Shown piece by piece: positions 641 to 15,616 of a stretch of DNA of 16,399 nt. This DNA is from Candidatus Desantisiibacteriota bacterium (GTDB lineage: Bacteria; JACRDZ01), in NCBI GenBank assembly GCA_016209155.1, contig JACQWU010000137.1, positions 1 to 16,399 of the forward strand, in the 5' to 3' direction. The translations under genes were made by a program, and so were the position numbers. Under the pieces are notes generated by a model. That model searched no databases and was not told where the DNA came from. It worked only from the letters and a program-made list of their open reading frames with translations. The number at the start of each line of letters is the position of its first letter. Position 1 is the stretch's first letter.

Positions 641-1348
641 TTATTCTCCCCAAATACCGTTATCCCATTTCATCTCATCCCATTTACCGGCAGCTATTGC
701 AGTAGATAAAGGTTTAGCTGAAGCTTCAATACTTATATCGCTTTCTCCTGTTGAATTAACAGAAGTTATAACATAATAATATATTATTCCGTTTGACAGA
801 TTTGTATGAATATAAGGAATTGAAGCCATTGCTATTTTATTATCAGATTTAGATACCCCTGTATTTGTTGACCAGTAAATATTGTATGATGTGGCATCTG
901 AAACAGAATTCCATGAAATTGTTATTTGTCCATCTCCGGATGCAGCGCTTACGTTAGAAGGAATATTTGGTATTTTGGATACTGCTACAGGTTTAGCAGA
1001 TACTTCAGTGCTTACATTACTTTCACCCGCTGAATTAACAGCAGTTACCACATAATAGTATGTTATTCCATTTGTCAAAGCAGTATGTGTGTATGGACTG
1101 GGTAATCCACTGATTTTACTATTAGATTTGGATACCCCTGTATTTGTTGACCAGTAAATATTATATGATGTGGCATCTGAAACAGAATTCCATGAAATTG
1201 TTATTTGTCCATCTCCGGCAACTGCATTAACATTAGTCGGAACTGCGGGAACATTAGTTGTAATATTATTTTTTGTATTATCTCCGCATGCCAGTGCGAT
1301 ACTTATTAACATAACAGATAGAAATAAAAATAGACATTTTTTAGTCAT
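641..1348 (-). CDS. Lipoprotein with two fibronectin type III domains and Trp-rich tail
   Basis: This 235-residue protein starts at ATG 1348 behind a strong GGAGGTG site. Residues 1-21 are a lipoprotein signal (hydrophobic stretch, then IALAC with Cys21 as the lipidated residue). Two fibronectin type III domains follow, about residues 34-120 and 127-213; each has the conserved ITISWNSVSDATSYNIYWS core strand and a Y-Y-x-V-x-V-N-S-x-G-E-S end. The C terminus (221-235) is a short Trp-rich tail with a repeated K-W-D pattern (GKWDEMKWDNGIWGE). FN3 domains in bacteria usually serve as adhesion or spacer modules outside the cell, so an envelope-surface role is likely but inferred. The two domains are almost identical over 94 bases of DNA, a sign of recent duplication. 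It lies in the same direction as the fibre protein, 50 bases upstream of its start, and may be co-transcribed. Confidence 0.88.
   Translation of the reverse strand: MTKKCLFLFLSVMLISIALACGDNTKNNITTNVPAVPTNVNAVAGDGQITISWNSVSDATSYNIYWSTNTGVSKSNSKISGLPSPYTHTALTNGITYYYVVTAVNSAGESNVSTEVSAKPVAVSKIPNIPSNVSAASGDGQITISWNSVSDATSYNIYWSTNTGVSKSDNKIAMASIPYIHTNLSNGIIYYYVITSVNSTGESDISIEASAKPLSTAIAAGKWDEMKWDNGIWGE
846..1218. repeat. Internal duplication of FN3 core, two 94-bp copies 279 bp apart
   Basis: Bases 846-939 and 1125-1218 are the same sequence with only two differences that I can find by eye, spaced exactly 279 bases (93 codons) apart. The copies encode the central strands of the two FN3 domains. 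Flanking parts of the domains have diverged more, which suggests either recent duplication or gene conversion restricted to the core. Confidence 0.85.
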
Positions 1349-3275: not shown

Positions 3276-4234
3276 ATGAAACGGCTGGTTATTTTATGTT
3301 TTGCGGTTTGTGTGCTTTTCGGTTGCAGTAAGGATTCGAGTTTGAAAATCGGTGTTTCCGCTCCGCTTACAGGTGATATTGCCGCGCTTGGGCAATCCAC
3401 TAAAAATGCCATTTTAATGGCAGAAGAAGAAATCAACGGTCAATTGCCGAAAGCGCGGGGATATCGCAAATATCTCCATGGTCAACCAATCCTAATGTAA
3501 CTTTAGGCCGGAAATATGTTTTTCGCGCGTGTTTTATAGATCCGTTCCAGGGTAAAGTTGTAGCTTTATTCGCACTAAACCAGTTAAAAGCAAAAACCGC
3601 GGCAGTACTTTATGATATTGCAAGTGATTACAACAAAGGTATCGCGGAAGTTTTCAATAAGGAATTTACAAGCGCCGGAGGGCAAATAGTCAGTTTTGAA
3701 ACCTACAATACAAAAGATACTGATTTTTCCGCCCAGTTAACCAAAATCAAGGGTACTAATCCGGATGTGCTTTTCCTTCCAAATTATTTTAATGAAGTAC
3801 CGCTGCAGGTACAACAAGCCCGAAAATTGGGTATTACCGCGCAAATCATCGGAAGTGACAGTTGGGATAATCCTGAATTGATTTCTCTTGGCGGAGATCT
3901 AATGAACGGTACATATTTTACCAACCATTATTCACCGGATATAGATAATCCATCAGCCCGTGATTTTATTACCAATTATCAGAAAAAATTCAATATGGTG
4001 CCCGATGCCGCGGCAGCTCTGACATACGACGCCGCTAAACTTCTATTTAGCGCAATTGCTAAAGCGGGGAAGGACGATGCTAAAGCAATTCGTGACGCTA
4101 TTGCGGCAACCAAAGGATTTAGCGGGATAACAGGAATGATTACTTATGAAGGTTCGGGTGATCCGGTAAAAGGCGCTGTCATTATTAAAATCGAAAATGG
4201 AAAATTTGTCTTTAATAACCAGGTAAATCCATAA
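3276..4234 (+). pseudogene. livK: Branched-chain amino acid ABC binding lipoprotein LivK, internally deleted and frame-shifted
   Basis: The N-terminal frame (3276-3500) starts at ATG behind AGGGA and gives a lipoprotein signal (VCVLFGC, Cys17), then the LivK start KIGVSAPLTGDIAALGQSTK and MAEEEING to about 3440. From about 3443 the homologous protein continues in another frame: IAESAGISQISPWSTNPN, then FIDPFQGK, LYDIASDY, TDFSAQL and GSDSWDNPEL to the stop at 4232-4234. The two parts sum to about 318 residues against roughly 370-390 usual. The first lobe's middle section, normally the D-D-x-S/A-K-P and VxxIxGxxxS region, is absent. So about 160-175 bases are missing, a number not divisible by three. 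The N-terminal frame ends at a TAA after 74 residues, so no full binding protein can be made. This is either a true deletion in the first gene of an otherwise intact liv operon or a misassembly. The downstream genes show no damage. Confidence 0.85.
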
Positions 4235-7703: not shown

Positions 7704-8813
7704 TTATAAATGAAAATCAGTTGGGTATTCAATCACTATTTTAAATTCTGAATAAGGAATATTATCTAAACTAAAAATGGTTTTATCCAATGAATAAGCT
7801 GTGATACTCATATTATGTATTTCACAAACTTTTTTAGCAAAAAACAATCCAATTCCAGTCCAACCAAATTTTTCTTTAACATATTTACCCCTTACATTTC
7901 TTAAAAAAATATTATCAATTTCTGAAATTTCAATTTTAGGTCCAATATTTTTTATTTCAATTTTTTCAGAGTTATACTTTTTAATAAATTCAACTGTAAT
8001 ATCATTATCACGTGGAGAATATTTAATTGCATTATCTAAAATCACAAATGGCAACAAATCAAGAATTGGGAAGCCATAAAGTTCAGTTGTTGAATTCCCA
8101 ATTATTTTTATTTTTTTTCTATCTATTCTGCATCTATTATCAAGGCAGTGTTTAACTTTATCAAATTTTTTATATATTCCCATAGGCGTTTTTGTTTGCA
8201 TAGTTACGCTCATTGGATTAAAAATAAAATCATATGCATCAAGTCTAATAGAAACTAATGAACTTGTACTAAATATATTTGCAGTTAAATCTTTTAGGAA
8301 TTCCAACTCAGTATTTTCTAATTTATTATAATTTTCTTTTGAAATATGTATATTTATTTCTTCTGATTGACTTTTGATTTCTCTATTTAGTTTTCGAATT
8401 TCATGCATTATAGCTTCAACAAAATCAATATTTTCTTTTAATTTTTTTTCAGCGTCTATTTTTTGCAGCTTTAAAGCTAATGCGTTTTCATTTACATCTA
8501 AAAAATTTTCAAATTGCTCAACTGATAATTCTTGTGTAAACATATCATTATCAATTTTATCTTTTAGTTTTCTTTTATTAAAATGTCCTTTTATTCTCAT
8601 TGATGTAAAAATTATTTTATTATTACAAAAAGTTGTTGTGAATGTCGAAAATCCATATGGGCATATTTTATATCCATCTTTTAGAATAGCATTTTTATAA
8701 AAAACATTACATTTTTTTCTATTTTTATTACAAAATTTATAAGTTTTTAATAATAAACCATCAGAGGGTAATTGATTGTTTCCTAAATCAGTAATATAAG
8801 GTAAATAGATCAT
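7704..8813 (-). CDS. Histidine-kinase-like ATPase with N-terminal cysteine cluster
   Basis: A 369-residue soluble protein with no membrane segment or signal peptide. The N terminus has Cys28, Cys35, Cys51 (in ICPYGFSTF) and Cys63, a spacing that suggests a metal- or redox-binding sensor. Residues about 95-150 are helical and hold MHEIRKLNREI with His137 at the place of a phosphorylatable DHp histidine. The GHKL ATPase domain has an N-box LLPFVILDNAIKYSPRDN (Asn261), a weak G1 box (IKNIGPKI, 287-294, lacking the Asp of DxGxG) and a good G2 box GWTGIGLFFAKKV (317-329) before H-N-M. It is thus kinase-like, but its partner is unclear: no response regulator is encoded nearby. It is very AT-rich. 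Immediately upstream on the same strand is a small gene with a frame break, and divergently placed is a second GHKL protein. A role as the sensor of this module is inferred. Confidence 0.72.
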   Translation of the reverse strand: MIYLPYITDLGNNQLPSDGLLLKTYKFCNKNRKKCNVFYKNAILKDGYKICPYGFSTFTTTFCNNKIIFTSMRIKGHFNKRKLKDKIDNDMFTQELSVEQFENFLDVNENALALKLQKIDAEKKLKENIDFVEAIMHEIRKLNREIKSQSEEINIHISKENYNKLENTELEFLKDLTANIFSTSSLVSIRLDAYDFIFNPMSVTMQTKTPMGIYKKFDKVKHCLDNRCRIDRKKIKIIGNSTTELYGFPILDLLPFVILDNAIKYSPRDNDITVEFIKKYNSEKIEIKNIGPKIEISEIDNIFLRNVRGKYVKEKFGWTGIGLFFAKKVCEIHNMSITAYSLDKTIFSLDNIPYSEFKIVIEYPTDFHL

Positions 8814-8817
8814 TTTA

Positions 8818-9011
8818 TTAACCCGTTATTTTTTTAATAATGATATTTGAAACAAAATTTAGAATTATTTTTTTCAACTCAGATGGTAAGGAATTTTCGA
8901 GACTTTTAATAGGAAACGTTTTATTTTTATTAAGAATATACTTAACATATTCATCTTCTAGTTTAAGGAGATGTTCTGCGGATATTCCAATTTTAATTAA
9001 TCGTTACTCAT
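8818..9011 (-). pseudogene. Small unknown gene (about 64 residues) with a one-base frame break near its start
   Basis: On the minus strand ATG at 9011 follows a good AGAGGAAAG site and reads M-S-N-D-stop. One base out of frame the sequence continues as RLIKIGISAEHLLKLEDE, then LPSELKKIILNFVSN and KKITG, to a TAA at 8820-8818, five bases before the kinase-like gene's ATG at 8813. The length of 194 bases is one short of a 65-codon gene; an extra A in the AGTAACG stretch would give M-S-K-R-L-I-K-I-G. So this is probably a real small gene, translationally coupled to the kinase-like gene, that is either mutated or misread. The protein would be small, helical and charged, like a partner or regulator. 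I do not recognise the family. The plus-strand ORF over the same bases looks like its shadow. Confidence 0.5.
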
Positions 9012-9078
9012 TTTCGCTTTCCTCTGCATTTTTTTCGAAAAAATTATTGATTTCATATTTTTTCGTGATTAAATACTA

Positions 9079-9109
9079 ATCATAAATCTTAATTTATGAA
9101 AATTGTCAA
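9079..9109 (-). promoter_or_regulatory. Candidate promoter and operator of the small gene/kinase unit
   Basis: On the minus strand TTGACA (9109-9104) and TATGAT (9084-9079) are separated by 19 bases, longer than ideal. The spacer holds a perfect inverted repeat CATAAAT-CTTA-ATTTATG (9081-9098) that overlaps the -10, as an operator would. The leader to ATG 9011 is about 60 bases. Confidence 0.45.
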
Positions 9110-9131
9110 TAAAATGTATATGATAATCATC

Positions 9132-9203
9132 GTATCCGATACTTTCTGTCCCTTAGTTTTTTTACCATGATTTTTTGAGAGGATACAGAAATAAGGTTAA
9201 AAA
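9132..9203 (+). promoter_or_regulatory. Palindrome and weak promoter candidate upstream of the STAS/HATPase gene
   Basis: GTATCCGATAC (9132-9142) is a perfect 11-base palindrome. Further on, TTGAGA (9175-9180), a 17-base spacer and TAAAAA (9198-9203) give a weak plus-strand promoter. TTTCTGT (9143-9149) and ACAGAAA (9185-9191) also form an inverted pair. Together these make a plausible control region for the rightward genes, but no element is decisive. Confidence 0.3.
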
Positions 9204-9272
9204 ATTTTCCGATTAACTGTTAATATGATTTTCAACTAAATCAAAAAATAAATTTTTATAAATAAATTTAAA

Positions 9273-9296
9273 TTTGGAATAGTATTTGGAATAGTA
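9273..9296 (+). repeat. Perfect 12-bp tandem duplication over the ribosome binding site
   Basis: TTTGGAATAGTA occurs twice in direct tandem (9273-9284 and 9285-9296), ending one base before the ATG at 9298. Each copy carries a GGAA that could act as ribosome site, the second at normal spacing. Confidence 0.85.
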
Positions 9297-9297
9297 A

Positions 9298-10590
9298 ATG
9301 AAGCCAATTAAAATAAAAATATCCTCATCTGCTGTTGTTGGTAATATTGAAAGTAATTTTGCTGACTATTTTTCGGAAAATAAATTTAACCAGTCGTGGC
9401 AGATAGATTTGTCTACTGTTGATTTTATAGAAATAGCTTCAATGGTTTATTTGGCTCAATTGATTTATAGAAGGTACAAACAAAACATCGAAACAAAAAT
9501 TATTCTTCCAATATCGTCTTCTGTATTAATTATTTTACATACATGGAGATTTTTTGAAATCATTGAAGATTTAACTAATATAAAAATTCTAAATTTTATT
9601 GATGGTGAATTTGAAAAATTTTCCGAGGTTAAGATTGAAATTGGAGGTAAAACTTTTCACAAGGATATCAATAAAGATTATTTTGAAAAATACTATTCAG
9701 ATAAGTCTATTAATGAATTAATAAAAAAAGGCTTTTTTTCTTTGATTTGTTTGCCATTTAAAACTATGGAAGAAAAAGAATTCGCACTAAAAAACCAAAG
9801 AATTCAATGGAATGCAGATAAATTAATTTCTGATGTCCTAGAAAAAAATCTTTTACTTAATGTTGAAGTTGGGAATATACTTGCAAACACTATTATTTAT
9901 GAGTGTTTAACCAATGCCGCTCATCACCCACAGTCAGATTATTTAGTAATAGGATCATTCTTTGACTTAAAAAAAACATCTAAAAAAGAAAATGTAATAT
10001 ATTATTTTACAATTGTTATATGGGATAATGGTAATAGTATTATAAAAACCTTGAAGGATTCCATTGATAATGGTAAAAATATTCGTGCAGAAAAATCATT
10101 TTTACTTGCCAAAACGCATAGTCTCACATCATGGATAAAATTAACCAGAAACTATATATCAACATCAAATAATAATTTTTTATACTATGACTTTATACCT
10201 GATAAAAAAACTGATAAAGACGAGATATTTGTTTCCTCCTTTTTCCCAGGAATTTCTAGAGATCCAAACAGGGAACAAAATTTAAGTTTTGAAAATAATA
10301 GTACGAATAAAGAAGCGATAGAAAAACATGATCCTGGATTGGGTCTAACCTATTTACTTAATGCTGTTATTGAAAAACTAAATGGAAATTTGTCTGTTAG
10401 AACAAATGAATACTTTTTGAATATAAAAAAAGGTAATAAGAATATTATATCAGAGTTTGAATCCTTAAAAAGTAAATCCGTTGCTTATAAAGCTGATCTG
10501 GAGTTGAAAAGATTAAAGGGATTAGAAAATCTTAATTATTCACAAGCAATTGACTTGTTGCAAATAAAAGAAAAAATCAAGATAAATTAA
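9298..10590 (+). CDS. STAS-like domain fused to GHKL (HATPase) domain
   Basis: A 430-residue soluble protein. ATG 9298 is fixed as the start because a TAA lies in frame directly upstream (9295-9297). Residues about 30-90 look like a STAS domain (SWQIDLSTVDFIEIASMVYL, the beta strand and helix seen in anti-sigma antagonists). Residues about 190-390 form a GHKL ATPase: N-box YECLTNAAHH at 201-210 (Glu202, Asn206), G1 box IWDNGNSI (Asp243, Gly245), and G2 box DPGLGL at 345-350 followed by a long helix and NGNLSV. This fuses the two partners, STAS and anti-sigma-type kinase, that are usually separate proteins in sigma-factor switching. No DHp histidine is seen, so autophosphorylation is unlikely. 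The 3' end overlaps by 37 bases an open frame that continues into a phosphoribosyltransferase-like protein. Whether this makes a fusion is unresolved. Base composition is very AT-rich, unlike the liv operon. Confidence 0.7.
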   Translation: MKPIKIKISSSAVVGNIESNFADYFSENKFNQSWQIDLSTVDFIEIASMVYLAQLIYRRYKQNIETKIILPISSSVLIILHTWRFFEIIEDLTNIKILNFIDGEFEKFSEVKIEIGGKTFHKDINKDYFEKYYSDKSINELIKKGFFSLICLPFKTMEEKEFALKNQRIQWNADKLISDVLEKNLLLNVEVGNILANTIIYECLTNAAHHPQSDYLVIGSFFDLKKTSKKENVIYYFTIVIWDNGNSIIKTLKDSIDNGKNIRAEKSFLLAKTHSLTSWIKLTRNYISTSNNNFLYYDFIPDKKTDKDEIFVSSFFPGISRDPNREQNLSFENNSTNKEAIEKHDPGLGLTYLLNAVIEKLNGNLSVRTNEYFLNIKKGNKNIISEFESLKSKSVAYKADLELKRLKGLENLNYSQAIDLLQIKEKIKIN

Positions 10591-11534
10591 AAATTCTTTT
10601 TGTTGTTGACTTAATTTATAGCGGAAACACTTTCATAAATAAATATAAAGAATTACAAACTTATTTCTATAATTCTGAAATTAGAGCACTTAGTATTTTG
10701 AACATTGATAATTCAATTGAATCAGAAGGAAAAGAAAACAAAAGAAAAATAGATCTCAATGCAAAAGATTTAATTGAGGTAGAATTTTTTTTAACAGTTC
10801 AACAAGTTAATTATCTCAAGGCAGATAATAACTGTCTCATGTGCCTTTATGATTTGCTACCGATGACTGATAGTAATTGTATTTGTGAAGATCACCTTAT
10901 ATCTTATGAAATGTGGTTAATGTGTGATATTGCGGGTTATAAATCTGAAGACTTTCAACCAAACAAAGGTCGAACAAAAATAGAATATTTACCTCATTCT
11001 ATTGAAATAATGAAAAATAATGCACCGTATTTAGCATATAAATTTAATAAACTTATTATTAAAAAAGATTTTAAAAAAAACTCCGATCTTATTTTGTTAT
11101 TTCCAGATGAAACAACGAATGAATTAGAATTAGTAAAACGCGATAATACCTTAATACTACTTAGTGAAACCCCCTCAGGTTATTTTGCAGAATCCTTAAA
11201 GCAGTTGGAAGATTTCCAATATTTTTCTATACCTAGAAATATAATAAGAAAACTTCAAGAAAAAGAAATTATGCTTAATGACATTCCTTCTCAAAATTCT
11301 GATTTCTATAATAATTTAAAAAAATTACCAGAAGCAATAATTATATTTGATGAATTTAAAAATTCCGGAGGGACATTTAGTATTATTTTAAAAATACTTG
11401 AATCTGTAAATAAAAAACCTATAGCATTTTTTCCAATTTTTGACTATTTCCCTTCTGATAAACAATTAAATAATATTCCAGTACTATCCTTATATAAATT
11501 TGATATAACACCAGAGGGTAATAATGCAAAATGA
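10554..11534 (+). CDS. Double phosphoribosyltransferase-like protein, true start unresolved
   Basis: The frame opens after a TGA at 10551-10553. It has no ATG, GTG or TTG until TTG at 10698, which gives 278 residues. Yet clearly coding sequence lies before that: ILFVVDLIYSGNTF (10593-10634) resembles the PRPP-binding loop of type I phosphoribosyltransferases such as PyrR. A second, more canonical loop, AIIIFDEFKNSGGTF, is at residues 213-227 counted from the TTG. Between them is a cysteine block C46-x2-C49 and C61-x-C63, a possible zinc site, and a segment SDLILLFPDETTNEL that looks like the first strands of the second PRTase core. The first PRTase lacks its N-terminal half. So either the upstream gene and this one are joined after a lost base in AAAAAA (10571-10576), or part of the gene is deleted. 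In this family the loop binds PRPP or a nucleotide. The stop overlaps the next gene by 11 bases. Confidence 0.55.
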   Translation, partial: LVANKRKNQDKLKILFVVDLIYSGNTFINKYKELQTYFYNSEIRALSILNIDNSIESEGKENKRKIDLNAKDLIEVEFFLTVQQVNYLKADNNCLMCLYDLLPMTDSNCICEDHLISYEMWLMCDIAGYKSEDFQPNKGRTKIEYLPHSIEIMKNNAPYLAYKFNKLIIKKDFKKNSDLILLFPDETTNELELVKRDNTLILLSETPSGYFAESLKQLEDFQYFSIPRNIIRKLQEKEIMLNDIPSQNSDFYNNLKKLPEAIIIFDEFKNSGGTFSIILKILESVNKKPIAFFPIFDYFPSDKQLNNIPVLSLYKFDITPEGNNAK

Positions 11535-12434
11535 ACAAAATGAAATTCAAATTCTTCAAGAAATTAAATCCATAGCTTATTTCATTGGCAATACTACTAA
11601 CACAGATAGTATTAAATTGAAACTTGCAGATTTCCATTATCGTGCAAAAAATTTACAGAATATAATATCTGTAGACCCTTCTAAACAGCCAATAATTAAA
11701 GAGCTTTTAAATCCTTCTTTTACCCTAAATGAAGAAAAATATTTAGCTGGTTCACGAATTAGTGCCATAAAGAAAGCAAAAGAAGTTTTGCGGGTAATTA
11801 ATGAAAAAAATATAGATTTATCAAATCATGGTTTTTTAAGCCTTGGAGGTGGAGATGGGACAGAACTATTTTTTGAAATTGAAAATTCTAAATCAAATTA
11901 TGGAATTTTAATGGAATATGACTTCTTCTCAGTAAATCGATTTAGTAATTTTCAAATTCCATTTTATTTAAGGAACTCTAAAAGAAAAATACGTACTGAA
12001 GTTATCGAATGCGATTTGTTAGATAAAATAAAATTTGATATTGCAAATAAATTAATTAAAGCCAGAAAATTGGATGGCATAGTGGTAGCAATACATGCTG
12101 TCCTTCATGAACTTTCAACTAGATCTCAATTAATGAAAGGTATGGGAATAAAAGATAAAATTGAAACTCTTTTTCGTAGAATTTATGATTTACACTCAAA
12201 TATTCTTTTAATTATTCGTGAACCAGGAATTCCGGAAAATTGGAAGGAGAGGATTATATATATATTACAATTGGAGATGAATATAAAAACGATTTTTTTG
12301 AAATACTTAAACAAATAAATGGGATACACTTTCAAAATAGTAATAGTAATTTTGAACTATTTGAAACAGGGACAATAAAATGTAAAAAGGATTTAGCAAT
12401 TGAATCTTTTAAATTTTACAGGGAATGGTTCTAA
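11524..12434 (+). pseudogene. Rossmann (SAM-dependent) methyltransferase-like protein with late frame break
   Basis: ATG 11524 follows an AGAGGG site and overlaps the PRTase gene by 11 bases. The first 240 residues show a helical N terminus (1-100) and a Rossmann start, FLSLGGGDGTEL at 104-115 (the glycine-rich SAM loop), then ILMEYD at 128-133 with the acidic ribose-binding residue Asp133. Later come DGIVVAIHAVLHELST near 184-199 and REPGIPENW near 232-240. At about 12243 the homologous reading shifts frame: the original frame runs to a TAA at 12318 through low-complexity sequence. The other frame gives EDYIYITIGDEYKNDFFEIL and a sensible C terminus to the TAA at 12432-12434. One missing A in AAGGAG would restore a protein of about 303 residues. 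Methyltransferase activity is inferred from the fold only; the substrate is unknown. It ends the rightward module. Confidence 0.6.
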
Positions 12435-12524
12435 AATTTTACCTAAACCGCAATGCTTTACTTATACAATTGCAAGAAAACGGACTTAAAAAGAGAACAA
12501 AATGGGGTCTTGTAAAATTATATT

Positions 12525-12659: not shown

Positions 12660-13022
12660 TTATGCCGCCAGCTTAAATTGAATTATGTTATATTCCACAA
12701 GAGGTCTGCTGGTATATCTTCCCGAAAATTTATTTTTTTCGATTTTTATGACCCCTAATTCATTGAAAAAATTTATTATTTTGCTTAAATTGGATACATC
12801 TCTCTTGATTAACTTTGCGAGTTCATAAATGGAGGTAGGTTTGAAATTTATAATATAAGTCAAAACATCAATATTTCGTATGAAACGGGAAAAATCATTC
12901 TTATTATCAAACGAAATTTCAAAATTATGCTCTTTATTATAAAATTGCTTATTTTTTAAAGCATTTTTAAAATTATCCAGCACTTCAGATGATGTTTTTA
13001 ACGAAACAATTAATTTTTTCAT
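12660..13022 (-). CDS. tumA: TumA-like antitoxin, winged helix-turn-helix (HVO_A0114 family)
   Basis: A 120-residue protein. Residues about 50-98 form a winged helix-turn-helix (TSIYELAKLIKRDVSNLSKI as helices 2-3, then FFNELGVIKIEKN as the wing), which fits the HVO_A0114-type DNA-binding antitoxins. The N terminus (KLIVSLKTSSEVLDNF) and the C-terminal LAA end also match that family as I know it. Its start codon overlaps the stop of the toxin gene (ATGA at 13022-13019), so its translation depends on the toxin gene's translation. It would neutralise TumE and probably repress the shared promoter; the near-palindrome at 13313-13326 over the -10 box is a likely operator. The stop codon abuts a transposase relic in the same frame. 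The family call rests on pattern memory and on the gene pair. Confidence 0.75.
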   Translation of the reverse strand: MKKLIVSLKTSSEVLDNFKNALKNKQFYNKEHNFEISFDNKNDFSRFIRNIDVLTYIINFKPTSIYELAKLIKRDVSNLSKIINFFNELGVIKIEKNKFSGRYTSRPLVEYNIIQFKLAA

Positions 13023-13309
13023 AATTTTACTCCTAAATGTTCTAAAATTATTTTTTTAAAATCTTCTATAAGCTTATCTTCATCAACATAATCATATGGG
13101 ATCTCTTTGTCATCTATATGAATATGCGACCTTTTTGGTTTATGATTATCAATTAATATTTTTTTCTTTGTTTTAATATCAAAACAAATTAAGCTGAATT
13201 TATGACCATCAGGATAATTATCTGACTTTCCTACATTCCAAATTTTAAGTTCAAGAACATATCTATTTTGCAATTTAGCTTTATGCCAATAAACAATTTC
13301 AGCTTTCAT
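13019..13309 (-). CDS. tumE: TumE-like toxin (DUF6516)
   Basis: A 96-residue protein that fits the DUF6516/TumE family. It starts MKAEIVYWH, then has GHKFSLICFD (residues 35-44), an LIDNHKPKRSHIHID block (52-66) with His56, His62 and His64 close together, and a C-terminal PYDYVDEDKLIEDF helix. The D/N-x-x-H-x-H block is the family's conserved core and a likely active site, but its biochemistry cannot be read from sequence. It precedes the antitoxin gene, which is the usual order for this pair, and overlaps it by four bases. The start codon lies six bases after the -10 box of a consensus promoter, with no ribosome site, so the mRNA should be leaderless. Base composition is AT-rich like the central island. 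Confidence 0.78.
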   Translation of the reverse strand: MKAEIVYWHKAKLQNRYVLELKIWNVGKSDNYPDGHKFSLICFDIKTKKKILIDNHKPKRSHIHIDDKEIPYDYVDEDKLIEDFKKIILEHLGVKL

Positions 13310-13768: not shown

Positions 13769-14476
13769 ATGAGTCTTGTAATTCTTGAAAATATAAAAAA
13801 AAATTACATCAGCGGAGAAGTTTCTGTCCCGGCATTAAGGGGAATAAATCTTTCTATTGATAAAGGAAAATTTGTTTCTTTTGTCGGCCCGTCCGGCAGT
13901 GGAAAAACAACATTGCTGAATTTAATCGGATGTCTTGATAAGCCGACTGAAGGGAAAATTTTTGTAGCCGGAGCTGAAGTTAACAATATGAATAGAAAAA
14001 CATCGGCGAAATTCAGGGGTGATAATATCGGGCTTATATTCCAGAATTTTAATCTTATCCCTGTTCTAACGGTTTATGAAAATGTTGAATATCCTTTGAT
14101 AATGGTGCAAGATGTTCCACCGGAAAAACGGAAACAGAGGATACTTGATTTGCTTGAAAAGGTGGGAATGACAGACCAGAAAGACAAATATCCGGCACAG
14201 CTTTCCGGCGGACAGAAACAGCGGGTGGCAATCGCCAGAGCCCTCGTAACAGAGCCAAAACTTGTTCTTGCGGATGAGCCTACTGCAAATCTCGACCACG
14301 ACACAGCCTATAAAGTAATAGGACTTATGCACCATATGGAAAAAGAATTCAATACTACTTTTATTTTCGCAACCCATGATTCAAAAATTGTAGGCGAAGT
14401 TGAGGTTATTTATACAGTGGAAGACGGGTTGATTACTAAAACACATGAAAACAAAAAAATCGGGGAGGAAAAATAA
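13769..14476 (+). CDS. ABC exporter ATPase of the LolD/MacB type
   Basis: A 235-residue ATP-binding protein. Walker A is GPSGSGKTT at 40-48, the Q-loop is [17 protein letters not shown] at about 91-107, the signature is [15 protein letters not shown] at 145-159, Walker B is [12 protein letters not shown] with Glu170, and the switch is ATHD with His203. The [23 protein letters not shown] block and the PTANLD end are typical of the LolD/MacB/FtsE group that powers MacB-like permeases: lipoprotein release, drug or peptide export, or cell-division functions. It has an AGGAGG ribosome site and lies 21 bases behind the repressor gene and one base before the permease start, so it is clearly part of the operon. 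No defect is visible. Confidence 0.93.
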
Positions 14477-14477
14477 A

Positions 14478-15616
14478 ATGAAAAATATAATAAAAATTGC
14501 CCTGCGTAACCTGCTGAGACAAACCCGAAGAACACTTTTAACCTCATCCCTGATTGCTGTGGGAGTGGCAATGGTAATATTTTTTGGCGGGATAGGGAAT
14601 TCATTTAAAAATGAAATGATAGGTATTTTAACTAATTCTAATCTGGGCGATATTCAAATTCACAAAAAAGGATACATCAGTTCAATAGATAATTTACCGC
14701 TTGATATAACTATTAGTGAAAATGATTTAAAAAACCTGAAAAAGAGAGTAAAACCTGTTCCGGTCTTGTTAAAAGAATAAAAGAAGGAGATACAAATCCT
14801 GATACTTTTGTAAAACCGGGTTCTATTGTAATTCCGCAAAATATAGCAACAGGAATGAATTTAAAAATAGGGAACGATCTTGTTTTAGTAGCCACCAACA
14901 AGGATGGATCTGTTAACGGTGTAACTTTTAAGATATCCGGTATTTCGGAAAATATTATGGGCCCTCAAGGGAAAGACGGGTACATTCATATGGATGACGC
15001 AAAATCACTTTTAAGAATTGAGAATGGTGAAATTACCGAAATCGCTATCAAACTGAATAATTTTGACAGATTAAATAAGACATATATAAACCTGCAAAAT
15101 GATTTGCTTAAAATAAAAGAAGAAAAAATAGGCAGACCTGTTTTTGAAATTCACACATGGGAAGCATTGACTCCGTTTGCAACCATTGCAAAAATCATAA
15201 CTATGTTGATTATGGTCGTGCGAATAGTTCTCTTTATTATTGTTTTAGTAAGCATACTTAATGTAATGATGATGTCTGTTTATGAAAGAATGGGAGAAAT
15301 TGGCACAATAGCTTCCATTGGAACACCTCCTTCAAAAATTCTTACGCTATTTTTGACCGAAGGCTTATTTGTGGGACTTTTCAGTTCAATAGCGGGTAAT
15401 ATTATGGGGATAATTATCTTATTGATTATTCGCGCGGCAAAACTGACTTTTACATTCGGAGATGCGCGTACAGAACTGACACTTGCTCCTCAAATCCCGA
15501 CTACTGAAATATTACTTTCAATAATTTTTGTAGTTGTAATTTCTGCGATTGCAAGTTTACAACCGGCGCTCAAAGCATCTAAAATGGAGCCAGTTGAAGC
15601 ATTAAGACATGTTTAA
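14478..15616 (+). pseudogene. MacB/FtsX-like permease, internally deleted and frame-shifted
   Basis: ATG 14478 follows GGGAGGAAA. The first part (about 91 residues, to about 14750) reads IIKIALRNLLRQTRRTLLTS, then a membrane segment, GGIGNSFKNEMIG and LGDIQIHKKGY, the MacB-type periplasmic start. It runs to a TAA at 14778-14780 after a nonsense stretch. From about 14753 another frame continues, GLVKRIKEGDTNPDTFVKPGS, IATGMNLKIGNDL and so on, to the FtsX core: a three-segment membrane block with YERMGEIGTIASIGTPPSKI and the final PALKASKMEPVEALRHV. The joined parts give about 380 residues, against about 400-420 usual. So some 30-40 residues around the lost junction seem missing, the region that normally leads into the GIDP-like motif. 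The ATPase before it is intact. As in livK, this may be decay or misassembly. The gene would form the transmembrane part of a lipoprotein-sorting or export complex. Confidence 0.8.

Follow-up and report, generated by a model that had tools for sequence, protein, structure and literature searches.

The question raised by this locus is whether the AT-rich genes near the middle of the window, by which we mean the whole analysed stretch of 16,399 nucleotides from a Candidatus Desantisiibacteriota bacterium (contig JACQWU010000137.1), form one functional module, and what such a module would do. An initial annotation had placed a leftward kinase-like ATPase gene and rightward genes for a STAS-GHKL fusion, a double phosphoribosyltransferase (PRTase)-like protein and a methyltransferase-like protein in a single module spanning both strands. 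The low GC content on which this grouping partly rested was confirmed by calculation, the segment 7700-13350 having a GC fraction of 0.25 against 0.38 in the left flank and 0.34 in the right flank. Comparison with relatives in other genomes indicated, however, that this AT-rich segment is two separate things and not one. The rightward genes are, on sequence comparison, a copy, incomplete as assembled, of a three-gene operon whose family is probably a mobile defence cassette with a sensor, an adaptor and an exchangeable effector, and the leftward gene does not belong to it.

A three-gene operon and its relatives

The features of the window's copy are given below, where comparisons refer to loci in an Acidobacteria metagenome-assembled genome (MAG; L011), Sulfuritalea (L012), Tetrasphaera australiensis Ben110 (L016) and a Rhodocyclaceae MAG (L018).

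9298..10590, + strand: STAS-GHKL protein, gene 1; intact to about 10482, the tail beyond altered by a break
10575..11534, + strand: gene 2, of which the C-terminal half of the double PRTase protein remains; a 315-aa alignment with residues 300-612 of the L011 protein showed 43% identity, E 4e-66
10602..10631, + strand: first phosphoribosyl pyrophosphate (PRPP)-loop motif, VVDLIYSGNT, from the sequence and the alignment with relatives
10833..10886, + strand: CxxC...CxC, a cysteine pattern like a zinc site, separating the two PRTase units; all aligned proteins keep the first C..C pair
11340..11375, + strand: second PRPP-loop motif, IIFDEFKNSGGT; DEF..SGGT is invariant in L011, L012, L018 and the window
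11524..12489, + strand: methyltransferase-like protein, gene 3; three pieces with 45-65% identity to the L011 methyltransferase, covering its residues 8-305 and 364-389
11839..11868, + strand: S-adenosylmethionine (SAM)-binding motif I, SLGGGDGTEL, conserved in six relatives

Relatives were found by scanning one genome per species with two short motifs, S[LVI]GG[GA]DG[TS]E[LI] for the methyltransferase and E[CA][LIV][TL]NA[AVI]xHP for the GHKL domain. The scans used artificial alignments that fixed only the degenerate columns, and tblastn with the actual proteins bore out each match. Eight loci were obtained, four of them carrying the operon; these counts are lower bounds, as such a scan catches only relatives that retain the motifs it looks for. 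An earlier genome scan with PRPP-loop patterns gave no loci. The Acidobacteria contig begins inside gene 1, with the upstream side out of view, and carries the end of the STAS-GHKL gene followed by genes for a 615-aa PRTase protein and a 394-aa methyltransferase-like protein (47% identity to that of the window). The Sulfuritalea and Rhodocyclaceae loci each encode a STAS-GHKL protein of 441-462 aa, a PRTase protein of 583-586 aa and a phosphorylase of 384 aa, and the Tetrasphaera locus encodes proteins of 404, 568 and 365 aa in the same gene order. The middle gene of Tetrasphaera is the weakest member of its family, assigned to it on its position, its length and a pairwise comparison (E 8.8e-4). 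The order STAS-GHKL gene, PRTase gene, third gene was found in L012, L018 and L016, and in L011 as far as the contig reaches, and the ends of genes 1 and 2 overlap or abut in every operon locus; in the window, the overlap among rightward genes that the initial annotation reported was found at 11524-11534. The co-occurrence that it had proposed as a test was likewise observed for the rightward genes, the STAS-GHKL and PRTase genes being direct neighbours, in unchanged order, in four other genomes from three other phyla, so that with the window's own phylum the operon spans four bacterial phyla.

The limits of the unit were given by the two closest loci. The DNA common to the Sulfuritalea and Rhodocyclaceae loci is a single block of 4,480 bp, 89.6% identical. 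It starts about 160 bases ahead of gene 1 and stops about 80 bases past gene 3, and its surroundings differ between the two loci. A single common block in different surroundings indicated that the three genes move as one cassette and that nothing else belongs to it; the rightward three-gene operon is therefore a discrete mobile unit.

The cassette usually lies beside virus-defence genes. That of Tetrasphaera directly adjoins a complete Lamassu set (LmuA 2e-81, LmuB 2e-198, LmuC 3e-48), and that of the Rhodocyclaceae MAG has as neighbours genes for an AriAB-like ATPase (4e-38), a TIR effector-like protein and AbiEi. AbiEi/AbiEii genes neighbour the Sulfuritalea cassette, and the neighbour in the Acidobacteria MAG encodes a weakly type IV-restriction-like protein.

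The cassette is rare: searches of 978 other genomes and of plasmids, phages and viral contigs yielded no homologue. With the window's proteins as tblastn queries there were no homologues in plasmids, phages or 386 genomes spread over families, and scans of viral contigs gave none. A profile of gene 2 matched only the window's own genome among these 386, together with one borderline partial match (E 1e-3) that was not counted, and it matched none of the 195 and 398 genomes that represented two phyla. The window's phylum was sampled by just three other genomes. In the literature searched, no description of this gene set was found, and the PADLOC 2023 library had no model matching gene 1 or gene 2 except for a weak PRPP-loop match.

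Domains of the encoded proteins and the state of the window copy

Gene 1 of the window shared 25.6% identity over 399 aa with that of the Rhodocyclaceae MAG (E 5e-29), and the GHKL motifs (an N-box with E/N/A/H/P, D-x-G and G-[LM]-G-L) were invariant across four loci. The Trp at residue 104 of the Rhodocyclaceae protein is also invariant. The STAS part of the window's protein matched no Pfam family by sequence. In an AlphaFold2 model of the Rhodocyclaceae protein (mean predicted local distance difference test score, pLDDT, 45), residues 22-128 matched STAS domains in 48 of 50 rows, with Z scores of 5.5-7.4 and with SpoIIAA and RsbS/RsbV among them. The proposed STAS-GHKL fusion was thus upheld, the GHKL part by its motifs and the STAS fold by the predicted model of a relative.

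A type I PRTase superfamily fold with a PRPP-binding loop is predicted for the product of gene 2, which is 568-615 aa long across the relatives. The L011 protein as modelled (mean pLDDT 52) matched APRT over residues 181-378 (Z 11.4, 150 residues, 2.9 Å), and Foldseek returned HGPRT (2.5e-5). For residues 1-180 the pLDDT was mostly below 50, too weak to uphold a STAS reading of that part. The second loop, DEF..SGGT, comes after the zinc-like C..C motif. The double PRTase of the initial annotation therefore described the family, as the full-length relative showed, while the window keeps only the second half. Across the family the loops are not uniformly preserved: the glycine of loop 1 is lost in L012 and L018, and loop 2 is lost in L016, which suggests that the sites may bind rather than catalyse there.

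The third gene is of two kinds, methyltransferase-like in the window and L011, and of the phosphorylase superfamily in L012, L018 and L016. The Rhodocyclaceae and Tetrasphaera phosphorylases matched Pfam PNP_UDP_1 (5e-15 and 4e-15) and the PADLOC model 'Effector PN-superfamily' (7e-30 and 5e-26), and they carry the catalytic-type motifs MEG[SA]GFA and RGI[AT]DY, as does the Sulfuritalea protein. For the methyltransferase-like form, the best profile matches in the PDB were weak (a putative methyltransferase and spermidine synthases, E 0.013-0.03), with motif I intact. The initial annotation was right about a Rossmann-like frame from 11524, but the gene ends at 12489 rather than 12434 and its frame is broken. 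The same domain also occurs outside the operon, forming the N-terminal part of TPR or TPR/NTPase proteins, which is the usual place of effector domains in such proteins:

L013, 7279-9369: methyltransferase-like domain as the N-terminal part of a TPR or TPR/NTPase fusion
L014, 5587-8609: the same
L015, 7827-10136: the same
L017, 1659-5210: methyltransferase-like domain embedded in a 1183-aa protein

These fused genes lie in places near HEC-05, LmuB-like and type II methyltransferase genes.

The two kinds of third gene bear on an alternative in which the STAS-GHKL protein would switch on a catalytically active PRTase protein whose product is an unusual nucleotide signal or an antimetabolite, with the phosphorylase or methyltransferase finishing or clearing that product. 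The good PRPP loops that both PRTase units have in L011 and the window, the fold match to APRT/HGPRT and the fact that phosphorylases and methyltransferases both act on adenosine-type molecules would all agree with such a pathway. The loss of the loop 1 glycine in L018 and of loop 2 in L016 means, however, that catalysis by both PRTase units is not conserved, and the third genes are alternatives rather than partners, which fits exchangeable effectors better than steps in one pathway. We consider the enzymatic pathway unlikely.

The window's copy lacks parts of the operon. Compared with the L011 protein, its PRTase protein is missing the first 299 residues; no start codon precedes the first PRPP loop (10602-10631) in the window, and the missing N-terminal half was found nowhere else in the assembly. 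Its methyltransferase-like protein lacks residues 306-363 of the L011 protein, at 12407/12409, and the frame shifts near 12240-12258. Programmed frameshifting between genes 1 and 2 was dropped as an explanation because the relatives have two normal adjoining genes, the second with 300 extra residues at its start. The source is a metagenome assembly, 79% complete and in 352 contigs, and indel errors are present in it. The essential gene rpoB is split and frameshifted there, being about 10 codons short after GKVTPKGE (G000:C276, L010 near 2022) relative to the sequence expected of RpoB at this point. Within the window, a livJ-like gene (3276-4234, + strand) and an FtsX-like gene (14445-15616, + strand) are each split between frames. 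As these three genes are broken too, the lesions in the cassette may be assembly errors. It is also quite possible, though somewhat short of probable, that the window's copy has decayed and no longer functions, about 300 and 60 residues being gone in addition to the frameshifts; the comparable damage to rpoB and to the livJ- and FtsX-like frames speaks against such decay, as do the 43-48% identity and the motifs that the remaining parts retain.

The leftward gene and other features of the window

The remaining genes of the AT-rich segment are as follows.

7704-8813, - strand: HATPase/histidine-kinase-like gene (PF02518, E 5e-9)
8818-9003, - strand: short frame just upstream of the kinase-like gene and itself preceded by GAGGAAAG, a good Shine-Dalgarno-like sequence
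12660-13022 and 13019-13309, - strand: overlapping small gene pair, encoding an HVO_A0114-type winged-helix protein and a short partner with phage-family matches

The kinase-like ATPase gene of the initial annotation is present at 7704-8813. Its protein begins with a cysteine region that contains a CPYG motif, followed by an H-box-like HEIRK and the HATPase domain, and it shared 28% identity over 233 residues with a kinase encoded on a Phaeobacter plasmid. This match pointed to PDC-M43 and not to the rightward module: the Phaeobacter inhibens plasmid pair (L006, 7030-8744) matches the PADLOC candidates PDC-M43A, a protein with a receiver domain and a probable membrane tail, and PDC-M43B, a soluble histidine kinase. 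The window's protein has a DHp and HATPase part related to that of the plasmid member and matched PDC-M43B over the HATPase part only (E 4e-12); it differs from PDC-M43 by an N-terminal CPYG region of its own and by the lack of a recognisable receiver partner. PDC-M43A had no match on the window's contig. The frame at 8818-9003 weakly resembles the C-terminus of a PDC-M43A-like receiver protein (shuffle p 0.013) and, judged by its sequence, may be a truncated receiver partner of the HATPase gene. The HATPase gene may itself be defence-related.

That all four divergent genes form one module with the HATPase protein as the sensor, as originally proposed, would be consistent with their adjacency, divergent arrangement and equally low GC content. 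No HATPase gene of the window's family, however, was found at the L011, L012, L016 or L018 loci, the mobile block of L012 and L018 excludes it, and the kinases related to it are PDC-M43B-like and have a receiver protein as partner. The single module is already contradicted by the L012, L016 and L018 loci and is very improbable.

The overlapping small gene pair looks like a toxin-antitoxin pair. At the other end of the window, 641-1348 (- strand) encodes a lipoprotein-like protein in which a fibronectin type III-like repeat occurs twice in nearly the same sequence.

Proposed mechanism and comparison with known systems

The initial annotation knew of no described signalling system with this gene set, a statement that is outdated for the first component: STAS-GHKL kinases were described in 2026, with CapK controlling immune operons and the kinase of VapKSC controlling a toxin (EMBO J; PMC13373217). 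VapKSC consists of the STAS-GHKL kinase VapK, the STAS antitoxin VapS and the PIN toxin VapC; once the kinase is activated, for which single-stranded DNA is the probable trigger, VapS is phosphorylated and the toxin set free, and the system gave about 2-log protection against one phage (PMC13373217). CapK/CapS consists of a helix-turn-helix-STAS-GHKL kinase and a STAS-winged-helix repressor, and CapK genes precede diverse immune operons, among them CBASS and Bub, and control their expression (PMC13373217).

The rightward cassette is best read as a so far undescribed anti-phage system in the layout of VapKSC. The STAS-GHKL protein would sense a trigger, as CapK and VapK would sense single-stranded DNA, and its kinase-type GHKL domain would phosphorylate or re-bind the PRTase protein, which would occupy the place of the VapS antitoxin and keep the effector inactive until the signal. 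The released effector would attack a common small molecule or macromolecule, the phosphorylase form perhaps destroying ATP or another adenosine nucleotide and the methyltransferase form carrying out a methylation or SAM-linked reaction, so that growth would halt before the phage spreads. The analogy for the phosphorylase form is with known PNP-superfamily immune effectors, such as the ATP-cleaving one of Detocs. This scheme comes close to the sensing, partner switch and nucleotide-based effector of the initial annotation, for the rightward genes only. The specific step in which the kinase releases the effector is put forward tentatively. We regard as similarly speculative the fuller proposal of an undescribed type of anti-phage system, in which the STAS-GHKL kinase would signal through the double PRTase as a nucleotide-sensing switch, with PRPP or a nucleotide at the PRTase sites, and would release exchangeable effectors that include a new methyltransferase class also fused to TPR and TPR/NTPase proteins.

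Several points weigh against the defence reading. The anti-phage role, or a more general stress-triggered self-harm, is predicted only; the members are few, from three other lineages and the window, and the middle gene of Tetrasphaera is only weakly like the other PRTase genes. The partial degeneracy of the PRPP loops makes PRTase catalysis uncertain, both predicted models are of low confidence, and the comparison with CapK and VapK used their published description. The window's copy, incomplete as assembled, may be nonworking in this organism. If the proposal is true, the switches that STAS-GHKL immune kinases work with would include a second kind, built on phosphoribosyltransferase folds, and the methyltransferase-like domain would join the candidate immune effectors. 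At only 4.5 kb, the intact Rhodocyclaceae cassettes make the idea directly testable.

Among known systems, the retron type III-A PRTase (PADLOC PDLC02932) and PRTase_2 (PF15609) resemble gene 2 by a weak PRPP-loop match (1.4e-4 and 0.037, respectively). The cassette differs from the retron in that no reverse transcriptase was seen in it and in that its PRTase is double, with a zinc-like insert. CBASS and other systems with PNP-superfamily effectors (PADLOC PDLC00759) share with the cassette the effector model matched by the third genes of L016 and L018, whereas the cassette has neither a cyclase nor phosphorelay proteins, and its sensor and adaptor differ.

The likeness to CapK/CapS lies in a protein with a STAS and then a GHKL domain at the head of an immune operon. 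In a CapK-like alternative, the STAS-GHKL gene would control only the transcription of the two following genes, without touching an antitoxin-like protein, as CapK genes do for the operons that they precede (PMC13373217). The cassette, however, has no CapS, the winged-helix partner that binds DNA; a PRTase gene comes next in all loci, and the cassette stops at the third gene. A helix-turn-helix was not recognised in any of the STAS-GHKL proteins (the relative's model is of very low confidence at its start), and the overlapping or abutting genes of this single operon leave no room for an internal promoter. Control of transcription only is thus quite improbable, less so than the single module but more so than the enzymatic pathway.

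With VapKSC the cassette shares a three-gene operon with the STAS-GHKL gene first and the effector last, a sensor-switch-effector order and a location near immune genes; STAS followed by GHKL was found in its first gene, by residues 22-128 of the L018 model and by the GHKL motifs at four loci. The second gene of VapKSC, in contrast, encodes a 116-aa STAS antitoxin with a conserved Ser/Thr, where that of the cassette encodes the much longer PRTase protein, and its effector is a PIN nuclease rather than a phosphorylase or methyltransferase-like protein; the cassette was also much rarer here. Because two defining genes differ, the cassette is not a member of VapKSC, with which it shares its layout.

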